Part shown: positions 7,336 to 26,855 of the stretch, piece after piece
How the letters are laid out: every line of letters begins with the position of its first letter
How positions within the stretch are numbered: position 1 is the first letter of the stretch
From: an uncultured delta proteobacterium
GTDB lineage: Bacteria > Desulfobacterota > Desulfobulbia > Desulfobulbales > Desulfocapsaceae
Direction: 5' to 3'
DNA: 38,199 nt
NCBI GenBank assembly: GCA_903875445.1
Contig: CAIQWD010000008.1
Location: 1 to 38,199, forward strand
Position numbers and translations under genes: made by a program
The notes under the pieces: generated by a model
The model's input: only the letters and a program-made list of their open reading frames with translations
Database searches by the model: none
What the model was told of the DNA's origin: nothing

Positions 7336-7355
7336 GGCGCACGTTTTCCGGGAAA

Positions 7356-8376: not shown

Positions 8377-8398
8377 GAGGAGAATCTAATGGGCGGAA

Positions 8399-10027: not shown

Positions 10028-10091
10028 CGCTCTTGGTAGATAAAAAATGGCCGGAAGTTACCATGATGCGGGGCGTTGATGCAAGGGGTAT

Positions 10092-12344
10092 TTATGCTTT
10101 GTCGTTCAGCCATCGGCGGATTTTGGCGGACAAAATATCGGGGATGATCGGTTTGGTAAGGTAGTCATCCATGCCGGCGGCAAGGCATTTCTCCTCATCC
10201 CCGACCATGGCGTGGGCGGTCAAGGCGATAATCGGGATGTGTCTTTCGGGGAGATGCTCCGCCGGGACCGGGTTTCCGGCATCTTCCGGCATATTGAGCG
10301 GCAGCATCTCCTTTTGCCGAATGATTTGCGCCGCTTCAAAGCCGTCCGTCTCCGGCATTTGAATATCCATGAGAATCAAATCGAAAGCCTGTGTTTCCCA
10401 GGTTTCAACAGCCTGGCGACCGTTCTCGACGGCCACGACGCTGTAACCCAAATTTTTCAGGACATGCAGCGCCAGGGTTTGATTGATGGAGTTGTCTTCG
10501 GCCAGCAAAATTCGCACTTGTCCGTCGGTTCCAGGGGCTGCTTGCCGCAACTTCAAAGAGTTAGGTGGAGGAGGTATCGTTTTGGCGATCTCCTGTTTTT
10601 CAAAAACGGCGCTAAACCAGAAGGTGGCGCCACCGTCCGGGTTCGCCTCGACACCGATTTTCCCACCCATCATGGCCACCAGCCTTTTACAAATAGCCAG
10701 GCCCAGGCCGGTGCCGCCGAATTTTCGTGAGGCAGAGCTGTCCAGCTGGGAAAACGATTGAAACAGACGATGAAATTGATCCGGGGGAATGCCTATGCCG
10801 GTATCGCTTACTTGAAAATGCAGTGTCACCTGGGCTGCTGTTTCGGCCTTCATGGCAACCTTGATAGCCACTTGTCCGGATGCGGTAAATTTCACCGCAT
10901 TGGTGGCCAGGTTGAGAAGAACCTGGTGCAAACGGGACGGGTCGCCACGAAGCAGGGTGGGGACCGCCGGCTCGATGCTTTGCAGCAGCAGGAGATCCTT
11001 GCGTTCGGCATGAAACCCGACGATTTTCCGCAAATCCTCCATGAGCCGGTTGAGATCGAAATCGATTACCGCAAAGTCCAGTTTGCCGGCCTCGATTTTC
11101 GAAAAATCAAGAATGTCGCTGATGACCGTGAGCAAGGTGTCGGCACAGGTTACGACCGTTTCGGCGTATTGGCGTTGTTGTTTGTCGAGAGGAGTAGAGA
11201 GCAGGAGATTGGACATACCGACTACTCCGGTGAGCGGGGTGCGGAGTTCGTGGCTCATATTGGCGAGGAAATCGCTTTTTGCCTGACTCGCTACCTCTGC
11301 CGCCTTCTTGGCCCGTACCAGTTCGGTAATATCGGTGATGATGCCGATGAGCCCGATAACGCCGCGATCACGGGCATGAATGGTTGCTTTGTCGAAGATG
11401 ACCTCGCGGATGTCGCCGCCTGCCTGCTGCACTTTCCAGGTGTAGTGCTGCGTTCCCGGATTCTGGAAAAGATCAAGGTCCTTTTGGTGGTAGCCGGCGG
11501 CAATGTGCTGCGGGGCCATTTCAAAAACCGTTTTACCGATAATGGCGCTCTTCGGTTTTCCCAGATAGCTTGCAAAAGCGGCGTTGCACCCGGTGTAGCG
11601 TCCTTCGGTATCCTTGTAAAACAGGGGAGTCGGGAGGGTTTCCATCAGGGTATGAAGAAAATCACGCTGCTGCATAGAGGCCTTTTCCGCCTTTTCCGCC
11701 TTTTCCTTAGCCTTTATCAGTTCGACCGTACGTTCCTCGACAAGATCTTTCAGATGGTTGCGGTGTTGAATGAGTTCTTCTTCGGCCTGTTTGCGAGTGG
11801 TGATATCCTCCACCGTGCCGATGATGCCGCTGACCTGGCCGTCTTCATCATGCAGGGGGATTTTGCAGGTGTCGAGCCAGGTTTTTTTGCCGTCGGCGCG
11901 GACCTGGGTCTCGGCGATATGTAATTCCGGCGTGTCGCTCTGCATGACCCGGCGGTCGCAGAGGAGATACCATTCGGTCTCTTCCGGCGCCCATGGCAGT
12001 TCCCGATCCATTTTGCCGACGATTTCCTCCGGATGGGCAAGGCCCGCCGCAGTGGCAAAAAGCTTGTTGCAACCGAGATATACCGAGTTACGATCTTTCC
12101 AGAAAATGAGCTGGGGGATGTTGTCGATGACCGATTGCAGCATTTCCTGGGAGCGTCGCAGGGCTTCCTCGGTGTCTTTTTTTTCGCTTTGGTTGCTCGT
12201 TTTTATCGGCGCGGTCTTGGTTAATTGGGCTTTGGCCAGAGCAAGTTCTTTTTCCAGGTGTTCAATACGTGCCGCTTGTGCCTTGAGTCCGGCTTCGAGG
12301 GCATCGGTATCAGGTGGGCGGCTTGATGTGGGAGGGTTTTTCAT
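10092..12344 (-). CDS. PAS-PAS hybrid histidine kinase with C-terminal REC
   Basis: This 750-residue protein has no evident membrane segment, so it is probably cytoplasmic. An N-terminal coiled coil (about 15-70) is followed by PAS 1 (about 65-190), a helical linker with repeated Lys-Ala-Glu, PAS 2 (about 225-345), HisKA with phospho-accepting H365 in MSHELRTP, and HATPase_c with N box NLATNAVKF and G boxes DTGIGIP and [13 protein letters not shown] domain ends the chain, with the acidic pair in LLAEDNS, phospho-acceptor D660 in LMDIQMP and a Lys in LTKP. There is no HPt, so phosphate must pass to a separate protein. The gene is upstream of the ABC-F gene on the same strand. Confidence 0.93.
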
Positions 12345-12586
12345 TTATTCCATCCGCCAGAGCCCGTTCAACGGGATTTCTTTCAGGTCCCGCAAGGGGA
12401 TAAAGACCGTTGTGCAATGCGGCACTGGGCTTTTCGTTATAAGCCGCAACGGTGCCATATGTGAATCTTAACGCCTTTGGCAGGAGAAAAGCAAGACCGC
12501 TCATGCAAGCTTGTGAGCATATCGATGTTTTACCAAAAAAGGGGGCAATTTCTTTCTATGAACGGAAGGGGCTGTGGAACAGCAAG

Positions 12587-12618
12587 GCCGCACTTTCCTG
12601 CAATTCGGACAGTGCGGC
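12587..12618 (-). terminator. Hairpin downstream of the cytochrome gene
   Basis: GCCGCACT (12587-12594) and AGTGCGGC (12611-12618) form a perfect 8-bp stem with a 16-nt loop, about 24 nt after the cytochrome stop on the minus strand. The T run after it is weak. The remainder of the 12345-12641 gap shows no gene; it must also hold the promoter of the kinase at 12344, which I could not place. Confidence 0.4.
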
Positions 12619-12641
12619 TAGGTTGCGCGGGGGACGGGCGG

Positions 12642-13145
12642 TTATTTCGGGACGTCGGCGGCCTTGGAGGCCAGCTTGTATTCGATGCCCTGGTCGGCAG
12701 GAGCGGCAAGTTTCACAACTTTGATAAAGCCATACCCCATGCCCACATGACACTCATTACATGAGGGGATTACCGCATTGTATTCCTTCCTGAAGTTCTC
12801 TATATTTTCGGAGGCGATAGCCTTGGTTACCTTGGCGAACCCCCCCTCATAAAAATTTTTCCAGTCCGCATATTCTTTCGGTTTAGTGACTTGGGCGGGA
12901 TTCAAGGCAACGTTCATATACTTTCCCATATAGGCGGCAAGTCCCCAGTTGCCACCTTCGGCGGCAAAGGCGATGTTCTGGAATCTGTCGCCTACCTCGC
13001 GCATCGGTATGGCAAATTTCGGCAAAGCGCCCTTGATGGCATCGATCTGCGGCTGCACATCTTCTCCTGCCGCGCTGACACAAAAACTGCTGCCGACAAT
13101 GATCAAACCTGCCACTGCCAGTACTTGAGCACATTTTTTCAACAT
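12642..13145 (-). CDS. Periplasmic monoheme c-type cytochrome
   Basis: This 167-residue protein has a classic Sec signal peptide (MLKKCAQVLAVAGLIIVG, cleavage near VSA-AG at about 25). The mature part is mostly helical, with a single heme-binding CNECH (C129 to H133) about three quarters along, followed by VGMGYGFIKVVK. This resembles small class II-like or cytochrome c' -like helical bundles with the heme site near the C-terminus. The other axial ligand is not obvious. Its role is presumably periplasmic electron transfer or gas/ligand sensing; the partner is unknown. A strong AAGGAGA ribosome site precedes the ATG at 13145. Confidence 0.85.
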   Translation of the reverse strand: MLKKCAQVLAVAGLIIVGSSFCVSAAGEDVQPQIDAIKGALPKFAIPMREVGDRFQNIAFAAEGGNWGLAAYMGKYMNVALNPAQVTKPKEYADWKNFYEGGFAKVTKAIASENIENFRKEYNAVIPSCNECHVGMGYGFIKVVKLAAPADQGIEYKLASKAADVPK

Positions 13146-13274
13146 GGTGTTCTCCTTATTGAGGATTGGGATGATGGGCTACGAGAGAGCCAGGCTGCCT
13201 GCGGTTGTAAGTGAGGGTACCTCCGTGTTTGCAGCGAATGCAAATAAATGTGGACTTTTAATAATTACTCTCAA

Positions 13275-13303
13275 TTGTGTCACAGGGTGGGATAAAATGT
13301 CAA
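13275..13303 (-). promoter_or_regulatory. Possible cytochrome gene promoter
   Basis: On the minus strand a perfect TTGACA (13303-13298) lies about 155 nt before the cytochrome ATG. The hexamers at 17-18 nt spacing (ACACAA or CACAAT) are weak -10 boxes, so an activator would be expected if this is used. Nothing else was recognised in 13146-13401. Confidence 0.35.
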
Positions 13304-13401
13304 GGGCAGGGGCAGGATTTTTTTGCAAATGAAATTGTCTGAAAAATAGAAATGTTATTCAACAGAAAAGGTGCAGAGCAGCGCCGACGGAGAAATAATT
13401 C

Positions 13402-16400
13402 TCACCGAGATTGCCGCGTGCCTTCGTTTAGATAGGGGAGCAAAACCGGGACCATGCCTTTTAAAACCTGGAGGGGTAGGGCCGAGGTAAAACTGAAGGC
13501 ATTGGCCGATTTGCCGCTGACAAAGGCGGTGAGGACGCCGAAATGTTTGTCGCCGAGGTAAAAAACAAAGGTGGCGGTGCGGTTCAGGGCCGTTGAGGAG
13601 CCCTTTATCCCGGCTGCGGTGGAGACGAAAATGCGGTTATCGCCGGTGCCGGTTTTACCGCCGATCGGCAGTGGGCTGCCGTCCGGCTGCTGGAAGCTGT
13701 GCAGCAGCCGTTTGGCGGTGCCTTCACTGACGACCTTGCCCATAGTCTCCCGGACCACCCGCGCGACTTCCGGGTGCAGGACCTGGACCGGGTTCGGGGG
13801 TGGCGGTTCAACGATCGATTCGTAGGGGGTGTCTTTGGCGAACTCCACCTTGGTGAAACGGTGCGTAGGGAAGCGCTTGCCATCGTTGAGGAGAATGCCG
13901 ACCAACTCGGCCAAGGCCGCCGGGCGGTCGCCGGAGCTTCCCAGGGCTGTGCCCAGGGAAGGGACAAGATGCTCAAAGGGATAGCCCAGGTTGACCCAGC
14001 GCCTGTGGATATCGGAGAAGGCATCGATCTCCAGCACCGTTCTGACCCGCGAATCCCTGGCGTTTTTCGCCTTGGTGCGCATCAGCCAACCATATACATC
14101 ACGGCGGACCTCCGCACTTTTTTCCATGGCGTCTTTTTGTGATTTTTGCCCCGGTTGCTGCAGGTAATCGAGGAGCCACAGTTCCAGAGGATGCATGGCG
14201 GCCAGGTAGCCGAGATCCTGCAGGTTGAAGGAGCCCGGTTTGTATTTATCGTACATCATCGACAGGCGGGCATTGGTTATATCGTTTGCCGGCAGTTCCT
14301 CGTGGATAAAGCGGATAAAGGTCGCCTCATCGGCTTTCGGGTAGAGATAGCGATGGATGATGGTCAGTCGCAGAGGGTTGGGGTTCATCCCCGCCAAGAG
14401 GGTCTCCAGTCGCTCCTCTGCTTTCTGGTTTTGGTATTTGTTCCAGAACCGCGCTAGGAACACCCGGCTTTCACGATCAATAAATTTATCGAGAACATCC
14501 TTGCGCCGGGGGTCCTTGTCGTCCGCCAGCACCTGTTTGTTGTTTTCCCATTGGCTCGCCCGGGTCGTGTTGACAATATCCTGCATAATTCTGACAAAAG
14601 GCAGGTTGATGGAATTCTGCAGGGCTTCAGTCACCGTGACAATGCGGTTGTTATCTTCTTTGCGGAAATTGCTGAAGACCTGCAGGCCGCCGCCGGTAAA
14701 GAAACGTTCCTCCGGGTTTGCCGAGTACGGGCGCTCCATGGCCGCTTCCAGCAGCGTTTTCAGCGGCAGTTGCGGCGTCTGCAGGATCTGGCCGCACACC
14801 CAGGAGGTGAGGGCGTCCGGGCGTTGCCTGTTGAATTCCTCGATCTCGGTCGGTCGGAGTTTTACAATCTCCGCATGCAGTTCGGCAATAATTTCCAGAT
14901 AGGTGGTCAGGGTGCGCAGTTTGGCCGTCGATCCCAGTTCCAGCTTGCTCCCTTCGTTGATATCAAAGGGTGTTTCCGTGGTATCGGTCTGCACTCGCAC
15001 CACGTTGCCGATCGGGGTGCGCTCGAACAGGGTGAAACTGTAGCTGAGGGCTTCGGCCTGATCGGGGGCCAGCAGATATTTGCCGACAAGCCCCATGGCT
15101 TCGGCGCCGGTCTTGGTCTGCAAGGTATTCAAATACCAGCTGGCTTCCTCCTGCAATTTGGAGTTCAAGGTGGCGGTAACCGTCATATCCAGGCGGTCGA
15201 GGTCATACAGGGAGACGTCGAAGAGGCTGCCGAGGCGATTGCGGACGACATTTATGCCTTTGTTGGTGGCAATCTGCGGGGCCGCCGAGTTTTCCGAGAA
15301 ATTGCGGAAAAACAGCGGCTGGGTCTGGGCAGCTTCACCGAGAGCCGGAGCAATAAAGCCTCCCTGCGCCAGGAGTCTCGCGTAACTGTTACTGAGCACT
15401 GCTAACTCGCTACGGCCCTTGACGAGATAATAGGAAGGCCGGCGATGGGCGATCATCAGGCTGATAACCTGCTTCAGGGCTTTAGCCTGCTGCTCCAGTT
15501 CCTGGCCCGTTGTTTCCTTTTTGTGCAGCAAGCGGTTGAGTTCTTCAAAGTCGGTGCCGTACCAGACAAACAGGCCGTCACCCAAACCGTTGACCTCGCC
15601 GGCACCGGGGGCGGCGGAAAGGGGTACGGAATTGACATAGTCGAGGACCAGTTGTTTGCGGAAGGCCGAGGTGTCCTCGCCGCCCCGGTAGGCCCGGACG
15701 CTGGCCGAGGCCATCTGGTAGAATTTTTCGGTGATCGACGAAGTTATGCCGTTATCCGAATGACGAAATTTTTCCGTCTGGGTGGCAAGGGTACTGCCAC
15801 CCATGGCCGGCAGATTGATTTTGACCAGCTCCCCCGTCTTCACCATCAGCGCTTTGGAGAACCGGCCCCAATCGACGGCCGGGTTGACTTTCGGGAAGTC
15901 ACCGGACAGGAGGTCGCGGTTTTCAATGAAGAGCAGCGCCTGGACCACCGGCGACGGAATAGCGGTAAAATCGGGGTAAACCCGTTTCGGATTGGTCATT
16001 CGGTACATCGTCTGCTGCGTTGCATCGAGGATATGCAAACCGGCCTGGCTTTTCTCGTTATAGGGGATATTAAAGCCATAATCGGCATAGCGATGCAGCT
16101 CTCCGTTGAAACGCACCTGGCTCGATATTTCCATGCCTTTTTGCCGGAGTTTCTTGAGCATTGCCGGTAACTGGACATAGCCGAGACGCAGGTCGTAGGG
16201 CCCTTTTTTCGGGAAGACGATGGAATCGCTGGCACCTTTTTCAACATGGAAGTCAAGTTTTGCGGCAAAGGCACTCAAATACCGGGATTGCAGGGTGGAG
16301 GTTTGCGCTTCATAATAGCCGGCCGCACAGCAGGCAGCCAGGATGAGAACGAACAGCAACAGCAGATACGGCCACCATCTCCGAGGTTTTCCGACAGCTG

Positions 16401-16719
16401 CACGGCGGCGCGAAGGAGGACGGGGCGGTGCGTCATCGGTCCGCCTCGGGGACGCCGGGTCGGGGCGTTCGATGCTGATCTCGTCCGGCTGTCGCGGTGG
16501 AATTCTGCCGGGCCTGCGCCCGCCGGCGGCGGAGGGCGGAAAGATAGGGTGACGTGGCCGGCCCCCTATGGGGATATTGAGGTCTTCCGAGGGATTGATC
16601 ACTGCCTGCGAATTTCTGTTGCCGAGGCTTTGGTAATGCCCCTGAGCTGTACAGTACCTGGGATTATTGTCATAGCCGGCTGAAAGAGTCGAATTGTTGT
16701 ACAACCTCATCATTGCCAC
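13402..16719 (-). CDS. Bifunctional penicillin-binding protein, large divergent class A
   Basis: About 1105 residues, longer than the usual 750-850. A proline- and arginine-rich cytoplasmic tail (1-113) precedes one membrane helix (about 116-135). The GT51 glycosyltransferase region has ALLFIENRDLL and GGSTLATQ, departing from the usual EDxxFxxH. The transpeptidase has S597 in GSTAKL, S703-x-N705 in LQNSINL and KTG from K1022 in GGKTGTGD, so its catalytic triad is intact. Between the SxN motif and VPSLGTALG (S921) there are about 215 residues, far more than usual, implying an inserted helical region. It acts in peptidoglycan synthesis at the outer face of the inner membrane. The start is GTG 16719, or ATG 16713/16710. 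Confidence 0.88.
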   Translation of the reverse strand: MAMMRLYNNSTLSAGYDNNPRYCTAQGHYQSLGNRNSQAVINPSEDLNIPIGGRPRHPIFPPSAAGGRRPGRIPPRQPDEISIERPDPASPRRTDDAPPRPPSRRRAAVGKPRRWWPYLLLLFVLILAACCAAGYYEAQTSTLQSRYLSAFAAKLDFHVEKGASDSIVFPKKGPYDLRLGYVQLPAMLKKLRQKGMEISSQVRFNGELHRYADYGFNIPYNEKSQAGLHILDATQQTMYRMTNPKRVYPDFTAIPSPVVQALLFIENRDLLSGDFPKVNPAVDWGRFSKALMVKTGELVKINLPAMGGSTLATQTEKFRHSDNGITSSITEKFYQMASASVRAYRGGEDTSAFRKQLVLDYVNSVPLSAAPGAGEVNGLGDGLFVWYGTDFEELNRLLHKKETTGQELEQQAKALKQVISLMIAHRRPSYYLVKGRSELAVLSNSYARLLAQGGFIAPALGEAAQTQPLFFRNFSENSAAPQIATNKGINVVRNRLGSLFDVSLYDLDRLDMTVTATLNSKLQEEASWYLNTLQTKTGAEAMGLVGKYLLAPDQAEALSYSFTLFERTPIGNVVRVQTDTTETPFDINEGSKLELGSTAKLRTLTTYLEIIAELHAEIVKLRPTEIEEFNRQRPDALTSWVCGQILQTPQLPLKTLLEAAMERPYSANPEERFFTGGGLQVFSNFRKEDNNRIVTVTEALQNSINLPFVRIMQDIVNTTRASQWENNKQVLADDKDPRRKDVLDKFIDRESRVFLARFWNKYQNQKAEERLETLLAGMNPNPLRLTIIHRYLYPKADEATFIRFIHEELPANDITNARLSMMYDKYKPGSFNLQDLGYLAAMHPLELWLLDYLQQPGQKSQKDAMEKSAEVRRDVYGWLMRTKAKNARDSRVRTVLEIDAFSDIHRRWVNLGYPFEHLVPSLGTALGSSGDRPAALAELVGILLNDGKRFPTHRFTKVEFAKDTPYESIVEPPPPNPVQVLHPEVARVVRETMGKVVSEGTAKRLLHSFQQPDGSPLPIGGKTGTGDNRIFVSTAAGIKGSSTALNRTATFVFYLGDKHFGVLTAFVSGKSANAFSFTSALPLQVLKGMVPVLLPYLNEGTRQSR

Positions 16720-16914: not shown

Positions 16915-18822
16915 ATGAGCACAATTCGTTTGCCGGCTCTTTCTCTGGGCTTGATTGTTCTGGTACTGGCAGCCTGCTTATGCGGGCATGCGTCAGGGAA
17001 GAACCGGAAGGAGGATATTATCTCGCTTGCCGAGCGGCAGGCGTTGATCTGGCAAGATACGACCGCCGCCCCCTTCTGTCAGGAAAACACCCCTGTGGAA
17101 AACGAGGGGCCGCAGGTCGCGAAAGACGAACATGTCTTGCAACAACATATTCCGGGTCCACAGCTTCCAGAAACCTCACGGCAATCAGGGGAAATATGGC
17201 CGTCAATTTGGTATCCTGCGTCAATCCTTGCCTTGGTGGGCATGTTGATCAGTTCGATAGTAGCAAGCAAGATTCGCTTTGAACGGGATGCCGCCAGGCA
17301 GGCAAGTAGATTAAAGAGCGATTTCCTGGCAAACGTCAGCCATGAAATTCGTACCCCGATGAATGCCATCCTGGGTTTTTCCCAGATTCTCAAAGCCCAG
17401 CTGCACGATGCACGGCATCAGCAGTATATCAATGCCATTTCCACCAGCGGCAATACCCTGTTGCGGTTGATTAACGATCTCCTCGACCTGGCGAAAATCG
17501 AAGCGGGCAAGTTTGAACTGCAACCCACTGCCGTTGCCCTGAAAAGCATCGCCCTGGAGATTCAGACGATTTTCATGCAGATAGTTGAGGAAAAGCATCT
17601 GGAGTTTATTGTTGACCTCCATCCTTCCTTGCCTGAAGCGCTCTATGTCGATGAGGTGCGGCTTCGGCAGATTCTCTACAACCTCTTGAAAAATGCCGTG
17701 AAGTTCACCGATAAGGGACTTGTCTCCCTGACCATGCGGCCACTGACGCCGCCTGGTGCCGGTGTCTTTGATCTGGAAATTGTGGTGGCCGACACGGGGA
17801 TCGGCATTCCGATAGAAGAACAGGGGATGATTTTTGAGGCATTTACCCAACGGAAAAGACAGGATCAATCGAAATACGCCGGTACCGGTTTGGGATTAAG
17901 CATTACCAAACGGCTGGTCGAGATCATCGGCGGCGAGATATCTTTGTACAGCGAGGAAGGAAAGGGCAGCATCTTTACGACCGTACTCCGCAGGATACCA
18001 GTGGCCTCGGGAGTGCTACGGGCGGTTCCGGGCAGCGAAAACGACGGTGCGGCCATCCGTTTTGATCAGGAGGCGGTTATTCTGGTCATTGATGCGATCG
18101 ACAGCAACCGTATGCTGATCCGCGAATTTCTCCGAACAACGAAGCTTTCCATTGTTGAGACGATCAGTGTCGCCGACGGCATTGACTGGTGCATGGCCAT
18201 CAAGCCGGATCTGATTCTTCTTGATTATAAAATGTCCTCCCTTGGTGATGCCGATCTTATTGCGCGGTTTAATCGGGTGAAAGAGGAGTTGAACATTCCC
18301 GTGGTGGCGGTGACGTCATCCTTGTCGGTCGGCAGCGAGGAGTTCCAAACCGATTTTCATTTCGACGGCTGGCTGAAAAAACCTTTGTTGTTGGGTGATG
18401 TGATGGAAACGCTGGCGTCTTTTTTGCCGCATTCCACCCTTTTTCGACAGGAAGAAAGCGGTTCGTTTGCCGATCTGCGCTACGGCTATGTCCTGCCCGA
18501 GGCGAAGGAGGTGCTGCAGGCGACTCGTAAACTTGAGGCGCGGCTACCTTCTCTCATGCGCATTCTCGTCGACAATATGCTGGAGCAGTATAAAGAGAAT
18601 CGAGAAACCTTCATTATTAATGAAATAAAAGTATTTGCCCAGGAAATACAAAGGCTTGCCATGGAGTTTGGGCTGGAGTTTCTCGGTTTGTGGGCGACCG
18701 AGCTGCTCAGTCAGATCAAGACTTTTGATATGGAACGATTACCCCATACCTTCGATCTCTTTCCCCAACTGGTCGCCATGGTTACCCATGCCGGCCAACA
18801 GGATGAGGTGGCAGGCTTATAA
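16915..18822 (+). CDS. Membrane hybrid histidine kinase, first gene of the Ehr-complex cluster
   Basis: This 635-residue protein has an N-terminal signal/anchor (about 5-25), a short 70-residue periplasmic segment and a second membrane helix (about 98-118). HisKA follows with H143 in VSHEIRTPMNA, then HATPase_c with N box NLLKNAVKF, DTGIGIP and GTGLGLSI. The REC domain is unusual: the acidic pair is reduced to D-A (VIDAIDSNR), although the acceptor Asp in LILLDYKM, the Thr and the Lys of LKKP remain. The last 100 residues are helical and of unknown role. The next gene is a response regulator 68 nt downstream, then the Ehr operon. The small sensor region may detect a membrane-associated signal or partner. 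Confidence 0.93.
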   Translation: MSTIRLPALSLGLIVLVLAACLCGHASGKNRKEDIISLAERQALIWQDTTAAPFCQENTPVENEGPQVAKDEHVLQQHIPGPQLPETSRQSGEIWPSIWYPASILALVGMLISSIVASKIRFERDAARQASRLKSDFLANVSHEIRTPMNAILGFSQILKAQLHDARHQQYINAISTSGNTLLRLINDLLDLAKIEAGKFELQPTAVALKSIALEIQTIFMQIVEEKHLEFIVDLHPSLPEALYVDEVRLRQILYNLLKNAVKFTDKGLVSLTMRPLTPPGAGVFDLEIVVADTGIGIPIEEQGMIFEAFTQRKRQDQSKYAGTGLGLSITKRLVEIIGGEISLYSEEGKGSIFTTVLRRIPVASGVLRAVPGSENDGAAIRFDQEAVILVIDAIDSNRMLIREFLRTTKLSIVETISVADGIDWCMAIKPDLILLDYKMSSLGDADLIARFNRVKEELNIPVVAVTSSLSVGSEEFQTDFHFDGWLKKPLLLGDVMETLASFLPHSTLFRQEESGSFADLRYGYVLPEAKEVLQATRKLEARLPSLMRILVDNMLEQYKENRETFIINEIKVFAQEIQRLAMEFGLEFLGLWATELLSQIKTFDMERLPHTFDLFPQLVAMVTHAGQQDEVAGL

Positions 18823-18890
18823 CGACGTCTTTTTCGCCAAATAAAAAACCGGATTGATTCTTTTCATCCCCAGAGCGACAGGAGCCTGAT

Positions 18891-19586
18891 ATGGACATCA
18901 TAGATCCCAATCTCCCGGAGAAAACACCGCTTATTCTCGTGGTCGACGACATTCCCAAAAATCTTGAGGTCATCGGCAATATCCTCTGCCTTGAGAACTA
19001 TCAGATATCGGTTGCCGGCGACGGGCAAAAGGCCTGGAATATTCTGCAGCGGATTTCCCCGGACTTGATTCTTCTCGACATCATGATGCCGACCGTTGAC
19101 GGCTATACCTTGTGTCGGCGTATCAAGACGATGGAGGACAAAAAAGATATCCCGATAATTTTCGTTACCGCCAAAACCAGCCCGGACGATCTGACCAAGG
19201 GTTTTGAGCTGGGAGCGGTGGATTATATCACCAAACCCTTTAATGCTGCTGAGCTGTCGGCCAGGGTGCGGACCCACATCACCCTGTATCGGGCCAAGAA
19301 GCGCAATGAATTTCTCATAGGGGAACTGCGGACGGCCTTGGGGCAGGTGAAAAAACTCTCTGGATTATTGCCCATTTGCTCCGGATGCAAAAAAATTCGC
19401 GACGATCAAGGCTATTGGAACCAGGTGGAAGCGTATATCTCGGCCCATGCAGATGTCCGCTTTTCCCATGGTATCTGCCCGTCCTGCATCCGCACCCAAT
19501 ATCCGGACTTGGCAAACAAGATCCTCGGTAATTATAATTCCGCTCAAACTCTTTCGCCCGCAGCGGACAGGCAGGGAAAATCTTAG
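18891..19586 (+). CDS. Response regulator with C-terminal double-CxxC domain
   Basis: This 231-residue protein has a complete REC domain at about 13-130: D19-D20 acidic pair, phospho-acceptor D63, T93 and K115. A coiled linker leads to a compact tail (about 157-207) with C163-x2-C166 and C196-x2-C199, in LLPICSGCKKIRDDQGYW and SHGICPSC. Four cysteines in two CxxC pairs suggest a bound Zn or other metal. This tail recurs after REC and PAS domains in deltaproteobacteria, in my recollection, with no known function. There is no DNA-binding domain. AGGAG lies 7 nt before the ATG. The stop ends 1 nt before the first complex gene, so the two are surely co-transcribed. Confidence 0.93.
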   Translation: MDIIDPNLPEKTPLILVVDDIPKNLEVIGNILCLENYQISVAGDGQKAWNILQRISPDLILLDIMMPTVDGYTLCRRIKTMEDKKDIPIIFVTAKTSPDDLTKGFELGAVDYITKPFNAAELSARVRTHITLYRAKKRNEFLIGELRTALGQVKKLSGLLPICSGCKKIRDDQGYWNQVEAYISAHADVRFSHGICPSCIRTQYPDLANKILGNYNSAQTLSPAADRQGKS

Positions 19587-19587
19587 G

Positions 19588-21606
19588 ATGGATTTCACGA
19601 TGGCTCTTATTATTGCAGAATCGGCAGTGTTGCTCACCTTGCTCTCATCAGTCGTGCCGCTGTTTTTTCTGCGCCGTCCCTATCTCCAGGGTCGGCTGTC
19701 TTTTCTTCTCCTGGGAATTTCCGGTCTCACGGCTTGCTCGGGCGGAGGAATGGCTTTGATGTTACGGACGAGCGAGCAAATGGTCCTCCCCATAGGTCTG
19801 CCTTGGTTGCATGTCTTTTTACGCCTTGATCCGCTTTCCGGTTTTTTCCTCTTTATAGTAGGACTGATAACCTTTATCGCTGCTTGTTATGGGCCCGCCT
19901 ATATCCGTGAATATATCGGCGGGAAACTGAGTATCGGCCCACTGACCTTGTTCACGGGACTCTTTGTCGGCGGCATGTTTTTGGTACTCCTCGCTGCCGA
20001 TGCCTTCTCCTTTATGCTCGCCTGGGAGTTGATGTCCGTCGCCAGCTATTTTCTGGTGGTGTTTCAGCATGAAAAGCCGGAAAATCGCCATGCGGCCTTT
20101 ATCTACCTGCTGATGGCGGTGGTCGGCGGTGCCTTTTTGTTTCTTGCCTACGGTGTTCTTGCCGGTTTCTCCGACGGTTTCAGCTTTGTCGCCATGAAGG
20201 CCGCCCACCTGAGCCCGACCTGGGCGACCATTGCCTTTACCTTCGCCTTTATCGGCTTTGGCTTAAAGGCCGGTATCGTCCCTTTGCATGTCTGGCTGCC
20301 GCTGGCCCACCCGGTAGCCCCTTCCCATATTTCAGCGATGATGTCCGGAGTCATGCTCAAGGTTGCCGTCTACGGTTTCATTCGTTTTGTCTATGACCTG
20401 TTGGGGAATGTCACCTGGCAGTGGGGCGTCGTAGTCCTCTTGGTCGGCTCGGCTTCGGCCGTTTTGGGGGTATTGTACGCCCTTATGCAGCATGATCTCA
20501 AACGTCTCCTTGCCTATCACAGTGTCGAGAATATCGGGATTATTTACATAGGTCTTGGGCTGTCGATGATCTTTTATGCCACCCATCACCTGGAAATTGC
20601 CGCCTTGGCATTAATTGCCGCCCTGTATCATTGCCTGAACCATGCCCTGTTCAAGAGCCTGCTCTTTTTCGGGGCCGGTGCCATCCTCCAGCAGAGCCGA
20701 CAGCACGATATGGAAAAAATGGGTGGGCTGATCAAGAAAATGCCGGTCACCGCCTACTGCTTTTTGGTCGGCTGTATCAGTATTTCCGCCCTGCCGCCAT
20801 TTAACGGCTTTGTCTCTGAGTGGCTGACCTTTCAGGCGGCACTGCAGGGGCCGCTGCTCAAGAGCGGAATTCTCGGGGCCATGATTCCTGTTGCCGCGGC
20901 CATGCTTGCCCTGACGGGAGCGCTGGCGGCCGCCTGTTTCGTCAAAGTCTATGGTATCGTCTTTCTCGGACAAGCCCGGAGCCCGGAAATCCTTGAGGCG
21001 CAAGACCCTTCCTTCGGCATGCAACTCAGCCAGATACTCCTGGCCGTCTGTTGTCTTGGTTTTGGCATCTTTCCTACCTGGACCGTCCGGGCCATTAATG
21101 GTATTCCCGAAGGCCTTTTGGGCACCGGTTTGTCGAGTGCTACCGATAACGGCTGGTTGTGGCTGACTCCGGTAAACCCGCAAACCGCCTCCTACGGTGC
21201 ACCCGCGGTCTTTTTCGGGATTCTCGTGTGTTGGCTGCTTGTCTATGTGTTTCTTCATCCGCTCCGCAGTGATAATCGCATCCGTATCGCCCCGGCCTGG
21301 GATTGCGGTTTCGGGCCGCTGAACTCGCGCATGCAATACACTGCATCGGCCTTTGCCATGCCGATTCGCCGCATCTTTTCCTTTGTCTGGCTGATTTTCG
21401 AAAAGGTCGAGCCGGCAGGCCCCGGCGGAAGAGCACATTACATCCTGCGAATAGACGATCGGCTATGGCTCATGCTCTATGTGCCCATCGGCAAATTGAT
21501 GTTGAAAATCGCCGAGAGGACCTCATATATCCAGGGCGGGAACCTTCGTGTCTATCTCTGCTATTCGTTTTTCACCTTGTTGTTTCTCCTGTGGGTGATC
21601 GTATGA
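19588..21606 (+). CDS. hyfB: HyfB-like antiporter-type membrane subunit of an Ehr complex
   Basis: This 672-residue protein has the same length as E. coli HyfB and about 16 membrane helices, in the proton-translocating NuoL/M/N-like family. The charged residues of the ion path are present: E147 in AWELMS, K227 in GLKAGIVPLH and K356 in LFKSLLF. It would form one ion-pumping module of the membrane arm. The start at 19588 is 1 nt after the response regulator stop; ATG 19600 is an alternative with TTAGGA before it. The stop overlaps the next start as ATGA. Earlier in-frame starts from 19447 lie within the regulator gene and are rejected. Confidence 0.93.
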   Translation: MDFTMALIIAESAVLLTLLSSVVPLFFLRRPYLQGRLSFLLLGISGLTACSGGGMALMLRTSEQMVLPIGLPWLHVFLRLDPLSGFFLFIVGLITFIAACYGPAYIREYIGGKLSIGPLTLFTGLFVGGMFLVLLAADAFSFMLAWELMSVASYFLVVFQHEKPENRHAAFIYLLMAVVGGAFLFLAYGVLAGFSDGFSFVAMKAAHLSPTWATIAFTFAFIGFGLKAGIVPLHVWLPLAHPVAPSHISAMMSGVMLKVAVYGFIRFVYDLLGNVTWQWGVVVLLVGSASAVLGVLYALMQHDLKRLLAYHSVENIGIIYIGLGLSMIFYATHHLEIAALALIAALYHCLNHALFKSLLFFGAGAILQQSRQHDMEKMGGLIKKMPVTAYCFLVGCISISALPPFNGFVSEWLTFQAALQGPLLKSGILGAMIPVAAAMLALTGALAAACFVKVYGIVFLGQARSPEILEAQDPSFGMQLSQILLAVCCLGFGIFPTWTVRAINGIPEGLLGTGLSSATDNGWLWLTPVNPQTASYGAPAVFFGILVCWLLVYVFLHPLRSDNRIRIAPAWDCGFGPLNSRMQYTASAFAMPIRRIFSFVWLIFEKVEPAGPGGRAHYILRIDDRLWLMLYVPIGKLMLKIAERTSYIQGGNLRVYLCYSFFTLLFLLWVIV

Positions 21607-22544
21607 CCGGATTCCTCTGGGCAATAGCGCAAACCTTCTGTGTTGTTCTGGCTGCACCGCTTATGGCGGGGTGGGTGAAGTGGCTGAAATGCCGCCTGCA
21701 GAACAGAAAGGGTCCGCCGCCCTGGCAGCCATACCGGGATCTGCTGCGGCTTTCCCGCAAACATGTGGTCCTGGCGGACACGGCCTCGCCGATCTTTCGC
21801 ATGGCCCCGTACATTGTTTTCAGTGTCACCATCCTGGCGGTTTCGACCGTCCCGGTGATAACCGTACAGTTGCCCGTTGCCGCCCTGGCCGATGTTATTG
21901 CCCTGGTCGGCTTTCTCGCCCTCGGCCGTTTTTTTCTTTCCCTCGCCGGGATGGATGTCGGCACGGCCTTCGGCGGCATGGGATCTTCCCGGGAAGTGAC
22001 GATAGCTTCGCTTGCCGAGCCGGCCCTGCTCATGGCCTTTTTTACCCTCGCCATGAATGTCTCAAGCACTAACCTGTCGACGGTTATCTGCCAGCTTGCT
22101 CAGCGGGATATAACTTTGTATCCGTCGCTCATCTTTTCCTCCATGGGCCTGATTCTCGTTGCCATTGCCGAAACGGGGCGCATCCCCATCGACAATCCGG
22201 CAACGCATCTCGAACTGACCATGATCCACGAGGCGATAATTCTCGAATACAGCGGTCGCCATTTAGCCTTGATGGAGTGGGCCGCTATGCTGAAACTGAC
22301 CCTCTTTTCCCTGCTCATCGTTAATGTGATTGTTCCCTGGGGGGTGGCTCTGACCCTGGTGCCTGGGGATCTTGCCCTGGCTGCCCTGATTGTCACCGGC
22401 AAACTGCTCGTTTGGGGAATGATCCTTGCCGTTTCCGAGACCATCCAAGCGAAGATGCGGCTGTTCCGTGCGCCGCAATATCTGGGGCTGGCCTTTATCC
22501 TCAGCCTCCTTGGCATGATGAGCCATATTATTCTTGAGGTATAG
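21603..22544 (+). CDS. hyfC: HyfC-like (NuoH-type) membrane subunit of an Ehr complex
   Basis: This 313-residue protein with about 8 membrane helices belongs to the NuoH/HycD/HyfC family, which anchors the soluble arm and contributes to quinone-site or coupling helices. Diagnostic segments are KGPPPWQPYRDLLRL near residues 38-52 and the acidic loop AETGRIPIDNPATHLELTMI near 181-200, which in complex I links redox chemistry to ion movement. The start at 21603 shares ATGA with the preceding stop; the much longer frame from 21303 is inside that gene. It lies upstream of the NuoK-like gene with a 4-nt gap. Confidence 0.92.
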   Translation: MTGFLWAIAQTFCVVLAAPLMAGWVKWLKCRLQNRKGPPPWQPYRDLLRLSRKHVVLADTASPIFRMAPYIVFSVTILAVSTVPVITVQLPVAALADVIALVGFLALGRFFLSLAGMDVGTAFGGMGSSREVTIASLAEPALLMAFFTLAMNVSSTNLSTVICQLAQRDITLYPSLIFSSMGLILVAIAETGRIPIDNPATHLELTMIHEAIILEYSGRHLALMEWAAMLKLTLFSLLIVNVIVPWGVALTLVPGDLALAALIVTGKLLVWGMILAVSETIQAKMRLFRAPQYLGLAFILSLLGMMSHIILEV

Positions 22545-22548
22545 TGAA

Positions 22549-23226
22549 ATGTTGATAGCTTCTCTGTCGCTGCCGGAACAGGTGGTCCTGACGCTCGCGG
22601 CCTTGATTTTGTTGTCGTCCTTCCTCCTTCTCGCCCAGGTCCGTCTGGACAGTTTGATCAATACCTTTGCCCTCCAGGGGCTCTTGATATTTTTTGCCAC
22701 CGTGCTCATGGCCTTTATCGCCGGCAAATATCACCTGCTCATCTCCGCAGCCTTGACTCTTTTTCTCAAGGTGTTTTTTATTCCCGGTCAATTACGCCTC
22801 CTGATCATTCGTCTGAATATCCGGCGCGAGGTGGAAGTCATCGGCAACCCTTCGTTGATCATGCTTTTTGCCGCGGCTCTGGTGCTCTTCAGCTACTATG
22901 TGGCTCTGCCGATCCGTGAACTGTCCCTGCTGTCGACGCGGAACACCATTGCCATCTCCCTGGCGGTGGTGTTGATCGGCATGCTGATTGTCATCTCTCG
23001 CCGCAAGGCGGTTGCCCAGGTCGTCGGCTTCATGTCCATGGAAAACGGTCTGTTTTTCGCGGCCGTGGTGTCCACCTACGGTATGCCGATGGTGGTCGAG
23101 CTGGGAATTGCCTTCGATGTGCTTGTCGCCGTCATTCTGTTCGGGGTGTTCTTCTTTCATATTCGTGCGGAGATCGGCAGTCTCGATACCGATCGTCTCA
23201 ACCATCTCACCGAGGTCGAAAAATGA
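22549..23226 (+). CDS. hyfE: HyfE-like (NuoK-type) membrane subunit of an Ehr complex
   Basis: This 225-residue protein has about 6-7 membrane helices and matches the HyfE family, which contains a NuoK-like core (around residues 125-205, with FMSMENGLFFAAV carrying the conserved membrane Glu). It would link the two antiporter-like subunits. The ATG at 22549 is preceded by GAGGT at 22536-22540; a TTG at 22534 is rejected. The stop overlaps the start of the next gene as ATGA. Confidence 0.9.
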   Translation: MLIASLSLPEQVVLTLAALILLSSFLLLAQVRLDSLINTFALQGLLIFFATVLMAFIAGKYHLLISAALTLFLKVFFIPGQLRLLIIRLNIRREVEVIGNPSLIMLFAAALVLFSYYVALPIRELSLLSTRNTIAISLAVVLIGMLIVISRRKAVAQVVGFMSMENGLFFAAVVSTYGMPMVVELGIAFDVLVAVILFGVFFFHIRAEIGSLDTDRLNHLTEVEK

Positions 23227-24689
23227 ATGCCCTTGGCGCCACCCTGTTCTCCCCTCTTGCGGGCATATTCCTCCTCGCCTTTATCGGTCACCGGCGATGG
23301 GCAAAAACCGTCAATCTGCTGATCTGTACGGCTACTTTTGTCACAGCCCTGCTGCTGGCCATAGAGGTATTTCAGCAGGGGCCGATTCTTTCCGTAAACA
23401 AGCTTTTTTATATCGACGGCTTTAATGTCTACCTCATCTTGCTGAATGCCTTCGTCGGCATGACCACCGCTATTTTTTCCGGGCCCTATATGGATCATGA
23501 AATTGCCATCGGCCGGGTCGATGATCGGCGAATGCGACTCTACTACTCGATGTATCAGGGTTTTCTCTTTACCATGCTGATGGCCTTATCGACTAATAAT
23601 CTCGGGATACTCTGGGTGTCGATCGAAGGGGCGACGCTCGCCACGGTGCTCTTGGTCAGCCTCTATCGCACCCATGAATCCATTGAGGCCGGTTGGAAGT
23701 ATTTCATTATCTGTGGGGTGGGTATTTCGCAGGCGCTGTTTGGCACCATTCTCGTGTATTTTGCGGCGGTGCGGATCATCCCCATTTCTGAAGAGGGCTT
23801 GCTCTGGACGGTCCTGCAGCAACATGCCGGGCAGATGGATGCCGGGGTTCTGTCTCTGGCATTTGTTTTTCTCCTGGTCGGCTATGGCACCAAGGTTGGT
23901 CTTGTGCCTTTGCATAACTGGTTGCCTGATGCCCACTCCGAGGGACCGACGCCGATGTCGGCCATCCTCTCGGGGCTGCTGCTGAATATTGCCCTGTATG
24001 CCGTGGTTCGCTTTAAAATGCTGGTCGATCCGGCCCTCGGCAGCCATTTGGCCGGCAACATGATGATGGGCTTCGGCATGCTTTCTTTTTCCGTGGCCGG
24101 ACTTTTGCTGCATCGACAATATGATGTCAAACGGATGTTCAGCTATTCTTCCATTGAGCATATGGGCCTTATGACCTTTGCCTTCGGCATCGGGGGGCCG
24201 TTGGCCACCTTCGGCGCCCTGTTGCACATGATTGTCCATTCCCTGACCAAATCGGCGATTTTTATCACGGTCGGCCATGCCACCCATGTTGCCGGCACGC
24301 AGAAGATGAGCAACATACGCGGTCTGATCCGCACCCAGCCCTTTGTCGGCTGGGGGCTTCTTATCGGCACCTGTGCCATCGCCGGCTTCCCGCCTTTTGG
24401 GGTATTTACCAGCGAATTTCTCCTTTTTACCGCCACCATTAAAAGTTATCCGTGGCTGGCTCCACCCCTGGTTTTGGGCCTGGCGGTTGCCTTTGCCGGA
24501 CTCTTTCGCAATCTTCAGCCCATGGTTTTTGGTGAACCGCCGGTCGGACAGGAAGCCGTTGTCGCCAATATGTGGCCGGTTTTCGTCCATCTCACGTTGG
24601 TACTCTGGCTCGGTATCGCCATTCCGACCGTATTGGCGCAGTGGCTCAATCAGGCAACCATCATGCTGGTCGGCAAGGGGGTTCTATGA
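23223..24689 (+). CDS. hyfF: HyfF-like antiporter-type membrane subunit of an Ehr complex
   Basis: This 488-residue protein has about 14 membrane helices, in the NuoL/M/N-like antiporter family. Conserved charged residues are E135 in SIEGATLATV, K224 in GTKVGLVPLHNWLPDAH and K343 in LTKSAIF. It is the second putative ion-pumping module of the complex. A histidine-containing segment (YSSIEHMGLM) matches the family. It overlaps both neighbours by ATGA. The HyfD-like third antiporter subunit of E. coli hydrogenase 4 is absent here, so the complex would have two pump modules rather than three. Confidence 0.93.
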   Translation: MNALGATLFSPLAGIFLLAFIGHRRWAKTVNLLICTATFVTALLLAIEVFQQGPILSVNKLFYIDGFNVYLILLNAFVGMTTAIFSGPYMDHEIAIGRVDDRRMRLYYSMYQGFLFTMLMALSTNNLGILWVSIEGATLATVLLVSLYRTHESIEAGWKYFIICGVGISQALFGTILVYFAAVRIIPISEEGLLWTVLQQHAGQMDAGVLSLAFVFLLVGYGTKVGLVPLHNWLPDAHSEGPTPMSAILSGLLLNIALYAVVRFKMLVDPALGSHLAGNMMMGFGMLSFSVAGLLLHRQYDVKRMFSYSSIEHMGLMTFAFGIGGPLATFGALLHMIVHSLTKSAIFITVGHATHVAGTQKMSNIRGLIRTQPFVGWGLLIGTCAIAGFPPFGVFTSEFLLFTATIKSYPWLAPPLVLGLAVAFAGLFRNLQPMVFGEPPVGQEAVVANMWPVFVHLTLVLWLGIAIPTVLAQWLNQATIMLVGKGVL

Positions 24690-26296
24690 TCACTCAAGCG
24701 CACCTCGGCTGGCAAAGCCTTTCCCCGGACGTCGAATCTCTTGTGCTCTTGCTTAAAGATGCCGGGATACCGACAAAAGAGCAAAGCAAGATTCAAGGTC
24801 CGGTCAAGGTTGTGATGATCGAAAGCGTTTTCTGGGGCAAGGCGGCCGCCGTGGCTGCGGACAACCGGGTGCGCTGGTGTGCCGTTTGGGCTGAACACCG
24901 GCCGCCGGAGATCGACATTTTTGCGGCGATGGCCGGCAGAAACGGACATCTGCTGTTGCATACGCTTGTCCCTGACCAGCAAGGAGAGTTGCCCTCGCAG
25001 ACGCCCTTTTTCCCGGCGGCCAATCGACCGGAAAGGTATCTCCGGGATATGTTCGGGGTTCATTTTTTCGATCATCCGGATCAGCGCCGCTGGATGCGCC
25101 ACCAGGCATGGCAGGAGGGGCAATATCCGCTGCTGAAAACTTTCCCGTTGGCCGGAACTCCGGCGGAAATGACTCCTCCCGATTGTCACTACCCCTTTCT
25201 TGCGGTCGAAGGCGAAGGTGTCTATGAGATCCCGGTCGGGCCGGTGCACGCCGGAATTATCGAACCCGGCCATTTCCGTTTTCAGGCCATGGGCGAAGAT
25301 ATTCTCAGCCTGGAGGAACACCTCGGCTACGTCCACAAAGGCATTGAAAAATCGGCGGAAGGGCGCGATGTCCGGGGGCTTGTTCGGCTTGCCGGACGGG
25401 TGTCGGGGGACAGCACCGTGGCCCATGCCTGGGCGGCTTGTCAGGCCTGCGAAGCGGCCGTCGGCATCACCCTGCCGCGGCGGGCGCTGATGATTCGGGG
25501 AATACTTGCCGAAAGGGAAAGGATCGCCAATCATCTCGGCGATATCGGCGCCTGTTGCAACGACGTCGGCTTTACCTTCGCCCAGGTGCAGTGCAGCCGC
25601 TTGCGCGAGCTATGGCAACGACAGAACGCCGCCGTCTTCGGCCATCGGTTATTGATGGACATAGTTGTTCCCGGCGGAGTGAAGGGTGACCTTGACGCGG
25701 TGCAGCTTGACTTCCTGCATGCAGCTATAGAGCAGTTACGCTCCGAATTACGGGAATTCCTGCCCCTGCTCTATGAATATCCATCACTGCAGGATCGTTT
25801 GCGCACTACCGGCGTGCTATCGCTTAAAAAGGCACGAAGCCTCGGCGTTCTTGGTTTTCTTGCCAGGGCCAGCGGCGAATGCTGGGATTTACGGCGAGAT
25901 GCACCCTATGTCCCCTATGGCAACATGGTTATCACCGTTCCCCACAGTTTGGAAGGCGATGCCTCCGGTCGGCTACGGATACGGGGCGATGAAATCCTCG
26001 TTTCTCTCGATCTGCTTGAAGAAATGCTGAAAAAATTGCCGGCCGGGGAGGTGGCGATGGAGTTTCCCGCTGTCCAGGGAGATTGCAGCGGTTTCGGTTG
26101 CATTGAGGGCTGGCGCGGAGAGATTCTCGCCTATGTGCACCTGGGCGAGGGCGGCAGGGTTCTCCGGTATTTTCCCCGCGATCCCAGCTGGCTCAATTGG
26201 CCCGCCCTTGAGGTAATGATCGAGGGGGTTATCGTCCCTGATTTTCCATTATGCAACAAATCGGTAAATGGCTCCTATTCCGGGCATGATCTGTAA
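24686..26296 (+). CDS. hyfG: HyfG-like large subunit lacking NiFe ligands (Ehr type)
   Basis: This 536-residue protein fuses a NuoC-like domain (about 1-150, ending ERYLRDMFGVHFFDHPDQRR) to a NuoD/hydrogenase large-subunit domain (GPVHAGIIEPGHFRF at about 185-199, GYVHKGIEKSAEGRD). Hydrogenases have RVCGIC at the first Ni site; here it reads RVSGDS, with S240 and S243 in place of both cysteines. At the C-terminal site DPCxxC is DPSWLN, with S501 and N504. All four ligands are gone, so no NiFe centre and no hydrogenase activity is expected. This pattern defines the hydrogenase-related (Ehr) complexes. The start at 24686 shares ATGA with the preceding stop and has AAGGGGG upstream. Confidence 0.93.
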   Translation: MITQAHLGWQSLSPDVESLVLLLKDAGIPTKEQSKIQGPVKVVMIESVFWGKAAAVAADNRVRWCAVWAEHRPPEIDIFAAMAGRNGHLLLHTLVPDQQGELPSQTPFFPAANRPERYLRDMFGVHFFDHPDQRRWMRHQAWQEGQYPLLKTFPLAGTPAEMTPPDCHYPFLAVEGEGVYEIPVGPVHAGIIEPGHFRFQAMGEDILSLEEHLGYVHKGIEKSAEGRDVRGLVRLAGRVSGDSTVAHAWAACQACEAAVGITLPRRALMIRGILAERERIANHLGDIGACCNDVGFTFAQVQCSRLRELWQRQNAAVFGHRLLMDIVVPGGVKGDLDAVQLDFLHAAIEQLRSELREFLPLLYEYPSLQDRLRTTGVLSLKKARSLGVLGFLARASGECWDLRRDAPYVPYGNMVITVPHSLEGDASGRLRIRGDEILVSLDLLEEMLKKLPAGEVAMEFPAVQGDCSGFGCIEGWRGEILAYVHLGEGGRVLRYFPRDPSWLNWPALEVMIEGVIVPDFPLCNKSVNGSYSGHDL

Positions 26297-26339
26297 CCTG
26301 ATAGGAATAAGAGAGATATGGTTCTTCTAGGAAAATAAT

Positions 26340-26855
26340 ATGTTCAGTGTTCTTGGCAGGATTTTTAAAACAGGCTGTTTGACGGAGAAATTACCGGCGC
26401 ACGACCAGGTAGTTGAACAACTCGGCTCGGTCTGTCGAAAGGAAATCAGCCGGATTTTTGGCGGAAGCCTGGCGATCAGAATGGTTGATGCCGGCTCCTG
26501 CAACGGCTGCGAACTGGAAATGCATGCGTTGAATAACAGCTTTTACGATATCGAACGATTCGGCATTCATTTTGTGGCCTCGCCGCGCCATGCCGATCTT
26601 CTCCTGGTTACAGGCCCGGTCGCCCGGCATATGCAGGCTGCGCTGAAAGGCACCTACGATGCCACACCCGATCCCAAACTGGTTATCGCCATGGGCGACT
26701 GCGCCGCCGATGGCGGGGAATTCGGTGTTTCCTACGCCAGTTGCGGTGCTGTTGCCAATGTCGTTCCGGTCGATGTGGTAATTCGCGGCTGCCCTCCGAA
26801 CCCGCTGCAGCTTCTTGAGGGTATTTTGCAGCTGCTTGGGCGGTCAGGCCGGTAG
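26340..26855 (+). CDS. hyfI: HyfI-like (NuoB-type) small subunit of an Ehr complex
   Basis: This 171-residue protein belongs to the NuoB/hydrogenase small-subunit family. Its four cluster ligands are intact: C54 and C57 in GSCNGCE, C121 in MGDCAADGG and C151 in RGCPPNP. It should carry one [4Fe-4S] cluster equivalent to N2 of complex I. With no polyferredoxin gene nearby, this is the only Fe-S protein of the cluster visible here. AGGAAA lies about 7 nt before the ATG. It follows the large subunit gene by 43 nt, the only larger gap within the complex genes, and is the last gene of the unit. Confidence 0.94.
   Translation: MFSVLGRIFKTGCLTEKLPAHDQVVEQLGSVCRKEISRIFGGSLAIRMVDAGSCNGCELEMHALNNSFYDIERFGIHFVASPRHADLLLVTGPVARHMQAALKGTYDATPDPKLVIAMGDCAADGGEFGVSYASCGAVANVVPVDVVIRGCPPNPLQLLEGILQLLGRSGR

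Follow-up and report, generated by a model that had tools for sequence, protein, structure and literature searches.

A predicted six-gene Ehr complex without the four NiFe ligands, encoded in a Desulfocapsaceae draft genome

Contig CAIQWD010000008.1 (assembly GCA_903875445.1), from an uncultured delta proteobacterium of the Desulfocapsaceae, was analysed over its full length of 38,199 nucleotides, hereafter the window, which is one entire contig of a 4.9 Mb draft genome. On the plus strand, between positions 19588 and 26855, it shows six consecutive open reading frames (ORFs), hyfB-, hyfC-, hyfE-, hyfF-, hyfG- and hyfI-like, which overlap or are adjacent and which, judged from their sequences, encode an energy-converting hydrogenase-related (Ehr) complex of the minimal six-gene kind. 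This name follows PMC7894505 and PMC3569383. Group 4 hydrogenase-like large and small subunits share one operon with antiporter-like membrane subunits, and the Ehr identity, already put forward in the original prediction, is supported by this gene set, by the loss of all four ligands and by a clade shared with Geobacter-labelled complexes. H2 turnover by the complex is very unlikely. It is probably a redox-driven ion pump, in which a carrier would dock, non-H2 chemistry would take place at the former NiFe site and ion movement would be coupled to it. The Ehr kind is already known and common, and the window complex is new as a member only.

The large subunit (24686..26296, plus strand, 536 aa) is a NuoC+NuoD-like fusion, EhrL/HyfG-like, which matches PF00346, PF00329 and PF00374; its top match in PDB is HycE (7z0s_E), by sequence and by fold alike. 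The two CxxC pairs of a group 4 [NiFe] hydrogenase are absent and it shows S240/S243 and S530/G533 instead. The former first Ni motif, R-V-S240-G-D-S243-T-V-A-H (25397..25426, plus strand), aligns with RVCGICGFAH of HycE, just as had been predicted. The second had been placed in DPSWLN (residues 499-504; 26180..26197, plus strand), with S501 and N504 as the replaced cysteines, whereas in the alignment DPCYSC of HycE corresponds to N528-G-S530-Y-S-G533, at the extreme C-terminus (PLCNKSVNGSYSGHDL; 26246..26293, plus strand). DPSWLN belongs to a segment which is also conserved in hydrogenases: the column of S501 shows T in 10 and S in two of the 12 hydrogenase-type rows, and that of N504 shows N in all 12, so DPSWLN is not Ni-binding and was rejected as the former DPCxxC. 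Despite this misplaced motif, the predicted loss of all four NiFe ligands holds at S240, S243, S530 and G533, as read from the alignment with HycE, HyfG and NuoD-type sequences, which contains no CxxC of the window protein at either Ni position. Beyond the DPCYSC position HycE and HyfG have 32 further residues and two other hydrogenase-type rows have 26 and 29, whereas the window protein stops there; this C-terminal tail is also absent in eight of the 12 hydrogenase-type rows.

The alignment contains 97 large subunits, sorted by the residues at the four ligand positions, with labels a, b and c coined in this analysis: 34 rows are type a (window protein included), 35 are type b (including L066, from a second Ehr operon of the same genome), four are type c, 12 are hydrogenase-type (HycE, HyfG and ten others) and 12 are NuoD-type; no row is EchE or a published Ehr reference by name. 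Types a to c, 73 rows in all, show no cysteine at any ligand position covered, three of the rows being fragments (L074 is without the first motif, L065 and L038 without the second). Hydrogenase-type rows show cysteine at 47 of 48 ligand positions, one row being truncated before the first cysteine. The sequence L054_1310 is type a by its residues, yet it falls outside type a in the quick tree described below.

A careful tree, with its root set on NuoD, was built from 60 of the 97 rows with both motif columns excluded, type a thinned to 17 rows, type b to 15, and the long-branched L054_1310 dropped; the branch of L062 and the odd make-up of L116 were flagged, and nothing else. In this tree the 36 cysteine-less rows form one clade (100/99), nested among the group 4 hydrogenase-type rows and adjoining HycE/HyfG and two others (91/87, not starred), and the NuoD-type rows are separate (100/100). 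A quick tree of 96 rows recovers the same cysteine-less clade (99), at whose unresolved base L054_1310 and type c are placed, and carries a warning that long branches join in it, those of type c and NuoD with those of some hydrogenases. With the cysteine-less rows placed inside group 4, the careful tree argues for a single NiFe loss within that group, in a sample of sequences where HycE and HyfG are the group 4 hydrogenases included by name. Ehr complexes had been presented as a link between group 4 hydrogenases and complex I; this description does not fit a clade that is inside group 4, next to Hyf/Hyc and apart from NuoD. A position of Ehr as sister of complex I was also considered and is unsupported by this motif-free tree.

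The window large subunit belongs to a starred clade with the Geobacter-labelled metagenome-assembled genome (MAG) sequences L056, L063 and L064, the GSU0739-45 sequences being outside the alignment. The closest large subunits among named records show 84 and 72% identity and lie on contigs whose titles name Desulfobacterales GWB2_56_26, Desulfoprunum and Desulfopila; the next, at 65-69% identity, come from contigs labelled Alphaproteobacteria, Micavibrio and 'uncultured proteobacterium', and such MAG labels can err. Type a is patchy in the genus sample: matches of at least 67% identity occur in five of 15 genomes, counting that of the window, and in one of the five the match is fragmented. Among 297 genomes sampled from the phylum, 62 contain a match of at least 476 bits, and the best 30 loci of that list, which include the window's own and three sequences already in the set, are all cysteine-less. 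Type c, found at L106-L109, L121, L122 and L124, is a third cysteine-less kind with RF[ST]G[TS]S ... GLS[NV]AE[CS]DR, and its HyfB-like gene is the last in the operon (L121, L122, L124).

Types a and b show a common C-terminus, N-K-S-x-N-x-S-Y-S/C-G-x-D, with a near-invariant N-K-S-x-N-x-S-Y core: N524, K525, S526, N528, S530 and Y531 occur in every row that covers these positions, 33 of type a and 34 of type b. The residue preceding the motif, C523, is not universal (in type a 29 rows show C, three N and one I). E193, in the beta1-beta2 loop, and R477, in the canopy, are kept in every type-a and type-b row with letters there; their HycE equivalents are E193 and R478, and the roles assigned to these residues follow PMC9474812. 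The canopy Asp529 of HycE, a position which in that source appears strictly conserved, is N528 in each of the 67 rows of types a and b that cover it, and Asn is also found at this position in four of the 12 NuoD-type rows. The AlphaFold model of the large subunit (mean predicted local distance difference test score, pLDDT, 83.4; predicted template modelling score, pTM, 0.87) has HycE 7z0s_E as its nearest fold neighbour (template modelling score, TM, 0.84/0.85), followed by E. coli NuoCD 7p7j_C (0.78/0.72).

This related NuoCD fold, together with the many NuoH charges retained by the membrane anchor, would suit a quinone reductase, a kind of simplified complex I in which menaquinone would accept electrons from a soluble carrier in the pocket that once housed NiFe. 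We regard this as unlikely: the quinone head-group residues of complex I, Nqo4 H38 and Y87 (PMC7684303), are replaced in the window protein by I192 and G241, and the H and Y pair, present in 12 of 12 NuoD-type rows, never occurs in types a and b. In addition, the small subunit shows a CxxC of hydrogenase spacing and not the tandem cysteines of NuoB, and in the Riflemargulisbacteria genomes that contain Ehr a complete pathway is reported for neither ubiquinone nor menaquinone (PMC6349859). The same genome contains, as an observation apart, a NuoCD-like paralogue at L068 (G000:C14, 7387-9141), in an unusual complex I-like operon; its canopy Asp is replaced by Asn and its quinone-tyrosine site reads N-Y-C; it is on a long branch and is also found at L040, L041 and L043.

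The small subunit (26340..26855, plus strand, 171 aa, PF01058) is NuoB/HycG-like and contains a single four-cysteine [4Fe-4S] site with hydrogenase spacing, C54-x2-C57, C121 and C151, with no extra ferredoxin domain. The adjacent cysteines of complex I NuoB are absent, C54-x2-C57 being present instead, and the CxxC region aligns ungapped with MbhJ and HycG. The original prediction that these four cysteines are kept extends to its relatives, 30 of 30 in type a and 33 of 33 in type b, and their full conservation in type a favours a redox role, since a non-redox transporter would not need them. The complex could alternatively be a redox-independent ion antiporter, whose hydrogenase-like arm merely senses or gates; one Fe-S site, no metal site and no electron-input subunit would accord with this. 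Such an antiporter is improbable, as a pure gate would not need four Fe-S cysteines that are found in 63 of 63 small subunits of both types.

By the labels of its relatives the host appears to be of a desulfobacterial lineage, a sulfur-cycling group. Taken with the absence of NiFe and of canonical quinone residues, as in MBS of Pyrococcus (PMC7684303), this could point to a sulfane-sulfur reductase, with the proximal Fe-S cluster as the catalyst. MBS, however, has a motif three residues shorter, a three-cysteine cluster and two of the four Ni cysteines kept (PMC7684303), whereas in the window complex the CxxC region needs no gap to align with MbhJ and HycG and none of the four Ni cysteines remains, so that we give a sulfane-sulfur reductase very little credence.

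The second Ehr operon of the same genome, L066 (G000:C110:26000-42000; 7229-14521, minus strand), is type b and shows the same six-gene set, also without Ni ligands and with a nearly identical C-terminal replacement motif. Its large subunit shows 37% identity to that of the window, and its small subunit, of 247 aa, has an added four-cysteine motif at the N-terminus. Type-b small subunits (n=33) range from 246 to 323 aa, and all 33 contain C51, C68, C71 and C74, a four-cysteine set that would suit one additional [4Fe-4S] cluster. Type-a small subunits (n=30) range from 168 to 209 aa, save two ORFs of 275 and 440 aa, which are probably wrong start calls, and none of the 30 contains this set. Types a and b are close together at L057, L058, L060 and L123, and also at L061 and L063, where the type-b large subunit is outside the stretch; other genomes show one Ehr type only, with at most four candidates scored per genome.

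In the membrane arm, the six ORFs being taken with their NCBIfam and Pfam models (HyfB, NuoH-like, HyfE, HyfF, NuoC+NuoD fusion and NuoB), the HyfB/EhrA-like antiporter-like subunit (19588..21606, plus strand, 672 aa) matches NF005086, hydrogenase 4 subunit B, with 805 bits, and the HyfF-like antiporter-like subunit (23223..24689, plus strand, 488 aa) matches NF005045, hydrogenase 4 subunit F, with 742 bits, both above cut-off. Their membrane Glu and Lys residues, predicted to be retained, are indeed kept among relatives scoring at least 420 bits: E147, K227, K258, K356 and E411 of HyfB in 13 of 13, and E135, K224, K343 and E398 of HyfF in 28 of 28. The HyfE-like membrane subunit (22534..23226, plus strand, 230 aa, with a TTG start as listed) matches NF008556, hydrogenase 4 membrane subunit, with 90 bits, under the 136-bit cut-off. 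The HyfC/NuoH-like membrane anchor (21603..22544, plus strand, 313 aa; PF00146, 112 bits) has many charged residues in common with HyfC/HycD/NuoH, and shows an Ehr-specific coupling loop (residues 194-215; 22182..22247, plus strand) with His202 and an insertion of three residues at about 207-209. All 28 Ehr rows, which represent 27 distinct sequences of types a, b and c and include the window protein, have His at residue 202; in ten comparison rows, four hydrogenase-type and six NuoH-type, this residue is Glu in nine and Asp in one. The insertion is present in the same 28 Ehr rows vs none of the ten comparison rows, its exact place varying between alignments (it is at another position in a smaller one). 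In MBS, MBH and complex I the redox and membrane arms are connected by three loops, of which this is one (PMC7684303).

In the redox-driven pump that we favour, an outside electron carrier would dock at the single [4Fe-4S] site, and electrons would pass between this site and a small non-H2 molecule in the former NiFe place, held by C-terminal N524, K525, N528, S530 and Y531 plus E193 and R477. The reaction would shift the beta1-beta2 loop and the altered HyfC loop, and this shift would drive or use the passage of ions in HyfB and HyfF. The conserved pump residues and Fe-S cysteines accord with the original prediction of an ion-pumping redox complex that acts on a non-H2 substrate, while the reaction itself is what we infer. 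Several points weigh against the pump. The operon contains no electron-input subunit, so a redox function needs an unencoded partner, and the conserved cysteines of the small subunit could be structural. The four type-c rows do not show the N-K-S-x-N-x-S-Y letters, so the proposed C-terminal clamp is not common to all cysteine-less kinds. Finally, the pocket stretches 183-216 and 531-536 have pLDDT below 50, so the model does not resolve the former NiFe cavity.

On a wider scale, Ehr may tentatively be counted as one more type of catalysis within the complex I superfamily, in addition to the reduction of protons at NiFe, of sulfane sulfur and of quinone, although we rate this broader proposal as somewhat doubtful. 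It would comprise one NiFe loss, the change of the Ni loop into an N-K-S-x-N-x-S-Y substrate clamp (types a and b), and a HyfC loop with His and the three-residue insertion; the window type would be a redox pump whose only encoded cofactor site is one [4Fe-4S] cluster, and next to it there would be a second Ehr type equipped with an electron-input cluster. Ehr is widespread, and its reaction, once known, would close a gap in our understanding of the superfamily to which complex I belongs; the residues of the replacement motif and of the HyfC loop are concrete ones to test, and the single-cluster type is a small system in which to test them.

A formate-linked, H2-evolving complex, as suggested for GSU0739-45 in a Geobacter proteomics paper (PMC7894505), is scarcely credible for the window operon. 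G. sulfurreducens Ehr subunits were more abundant on formate than with hydrogen (PMC7894505), a difference for which an electron donor derived from formate could account with no H2 involved. All four cysteines are reported for EhrL of D. ruminis (PMC3569383), so the Ehr name alone does not exclude H2; however, the four ligands are absent in the Geobacter- and Geobacteraceae-labelled type-a large subunits L056, L061, L063 and L064, the six operon genes include no formate dehydrogenase by their NCBIfam and Pfam matches, and Ehr expression is reported not to rise with H2 in N. moscoviensis (PMC12342949).

Four of the five operon junctions overlap, by 4-11 bases. With E. coli Hyf and Hyc proteins as probes, the operon shows no gene for the ferredoxin-like HyfA/HycB or HyfH/HycF (NuoI-like), for HyfD or for HyfJ, and the HycF/HyfH and HycB/HyfA probes show no match anywhere in the window. 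No NuoE/F/G-type domain is found among the Pfam matches of the six operon genes, three adjacent regulators and ten other window ORFs, no NuoE/F/G sequence probe being included. Against the genus-mate G006, the six proteins show 82-96% identity and the genes, in order, ratios of nonsynonymous to synonymous substitution (dN/dS) of 0.077, 0.069, 0.031, 0.056, 0.118 and 0.046, which are rough because dS is 0.90-1.54; the window operon genes contain no internal stops. By these comparisons the Ehr operon is under purifying selection, and the cysteine loss is not due to chance or decay.

Directly upstream of hyfB there is a hybrid histidine kinase and response regulator pair (16915-19586), and the hyfB ATG is 1 base past the regulator gene, whose stop codon ends at 19586. 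The pair was considered as part of the Ehr system and, from the loci of the relatives, was judged a local neighbour. G006 (L073) contains the six Ehr genes without it, and G009 (L074) contains the penicillin-binding-protein, kinase and regulator genes in window order with an Ehr fragment about 10 kb away on the opposite strand. Nine type-a loci have DNA upstream of hyfB (L049, L051-L053, L056, L059, L062-L064): L059 shows a weak regulator-like match upstream (37 bits), L064 a weak kinase-like match downstream (44 bits), and the other seven show no kinase- or regulator-like match. A possible counterexample is the type-c locus L122, which has kinase- and regulator-like ORFs before the operon (169 and 63 bits). 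Among 20 clustered loci no family beyond the six core genes occurs in more than five, which gives no extra conserved subunit.

PTS-EIIA/helix-turn-helix (HTH) and MazF-like ORFs recur near some Geobacter-like loci, and EIIA/HTH also in one Nitrospiraceae-labelled locus. One family adjoins the HyfB-like gene in five loci (L053 3003-3683, L056 870-1553, L059 15669-16352, L063 13366-14049 and L064 18384-19067), and its L053 and L063 copies show HTH and PTS-EIIA2 by Pfam. In the window, the response regulator (18891-19586) has a C-terminal cysteine-rich stretch (ICSGCKKIRDDQGYWNQVEAYI...HGICPSC) unmatched by any Pfam model, the region 13405-16719 encodes a transglycosylase/transpeptidase-like protein of 1105 aa with modest Pfam scores, and a Na+/H+ exchanger-family gene adjoins a universal stress protein gene, both on the minus strand within 6091-8240.

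Ehr was first identified in Geobacter, with the NiFe cysteines absent in most cases (PMC3569383); they are also absent from the large subunits of PMC4378227 and PMC6349859 and from Ehr of the Candidate Phyla Radiation (PMC7304191). In Sulfobacillus, six syntenic genes are near a large subunit without NiFe motifs (PMC4378227). About half of the Nitrospirales genomes are reported with Ehr (PMC12342949), its function there being unknown according to PMC12342949 and PMC10284858, and its benefit is given as unknown in ammonia oxidisers (PMC10432482). In HydDB, Ehr is left out by the classifier as a homologue without H2 metabolism (PMC5037454). PMC7894505 states of the role of Ehr in G. sulfurreducens that it 'has never been investigated'. 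The C-terminal replacement motif, the HyfC loop change and the a/b split were not met in the available portions of this Ehr literature, outside whose scope are Coppi 2005 and Marreiros 2013.

Geobacter Ehr (GSU0739-0745), where the name stands for Ech hydrogenase-related, has the same NuoL-like, HyfE-like, large and small subunits, as named in PMC7894505, and differs in that Geobacter-labelled L056 shows two adjacent HyfB-like copies vs one in the window. E. coli formate hydrogenlyase and hydrogenase-4 (HycE, HyfG) share with the window complex the NuoC-NuoD fusion and the kept E193 and R477, whereas the window complex is without the four cysteines, the canopy Asp529 (N528), the 32-residue tail and the HyfA/HyfH/HyfD/HyfJ-like operon genes. 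Complex I (NuoB, NuoCD, NuoH) has homologous subunits and fold, but the window complex shows neither its tandem cysteines nor its His/Tyr quinone pair, contains no NuoI-like gene in the operon and belongs to a separate clade. MBS of Pyrococcus, compared through the features given in PMC7684303 and not by a residue-by-residue alignment of its sequence, is likewise a group 4 relative without NiFe; it keeps two Ni cysteines and has a three-cysteine cluster in a shorter motif (PMC7684303), neither of which is found in the window complex.

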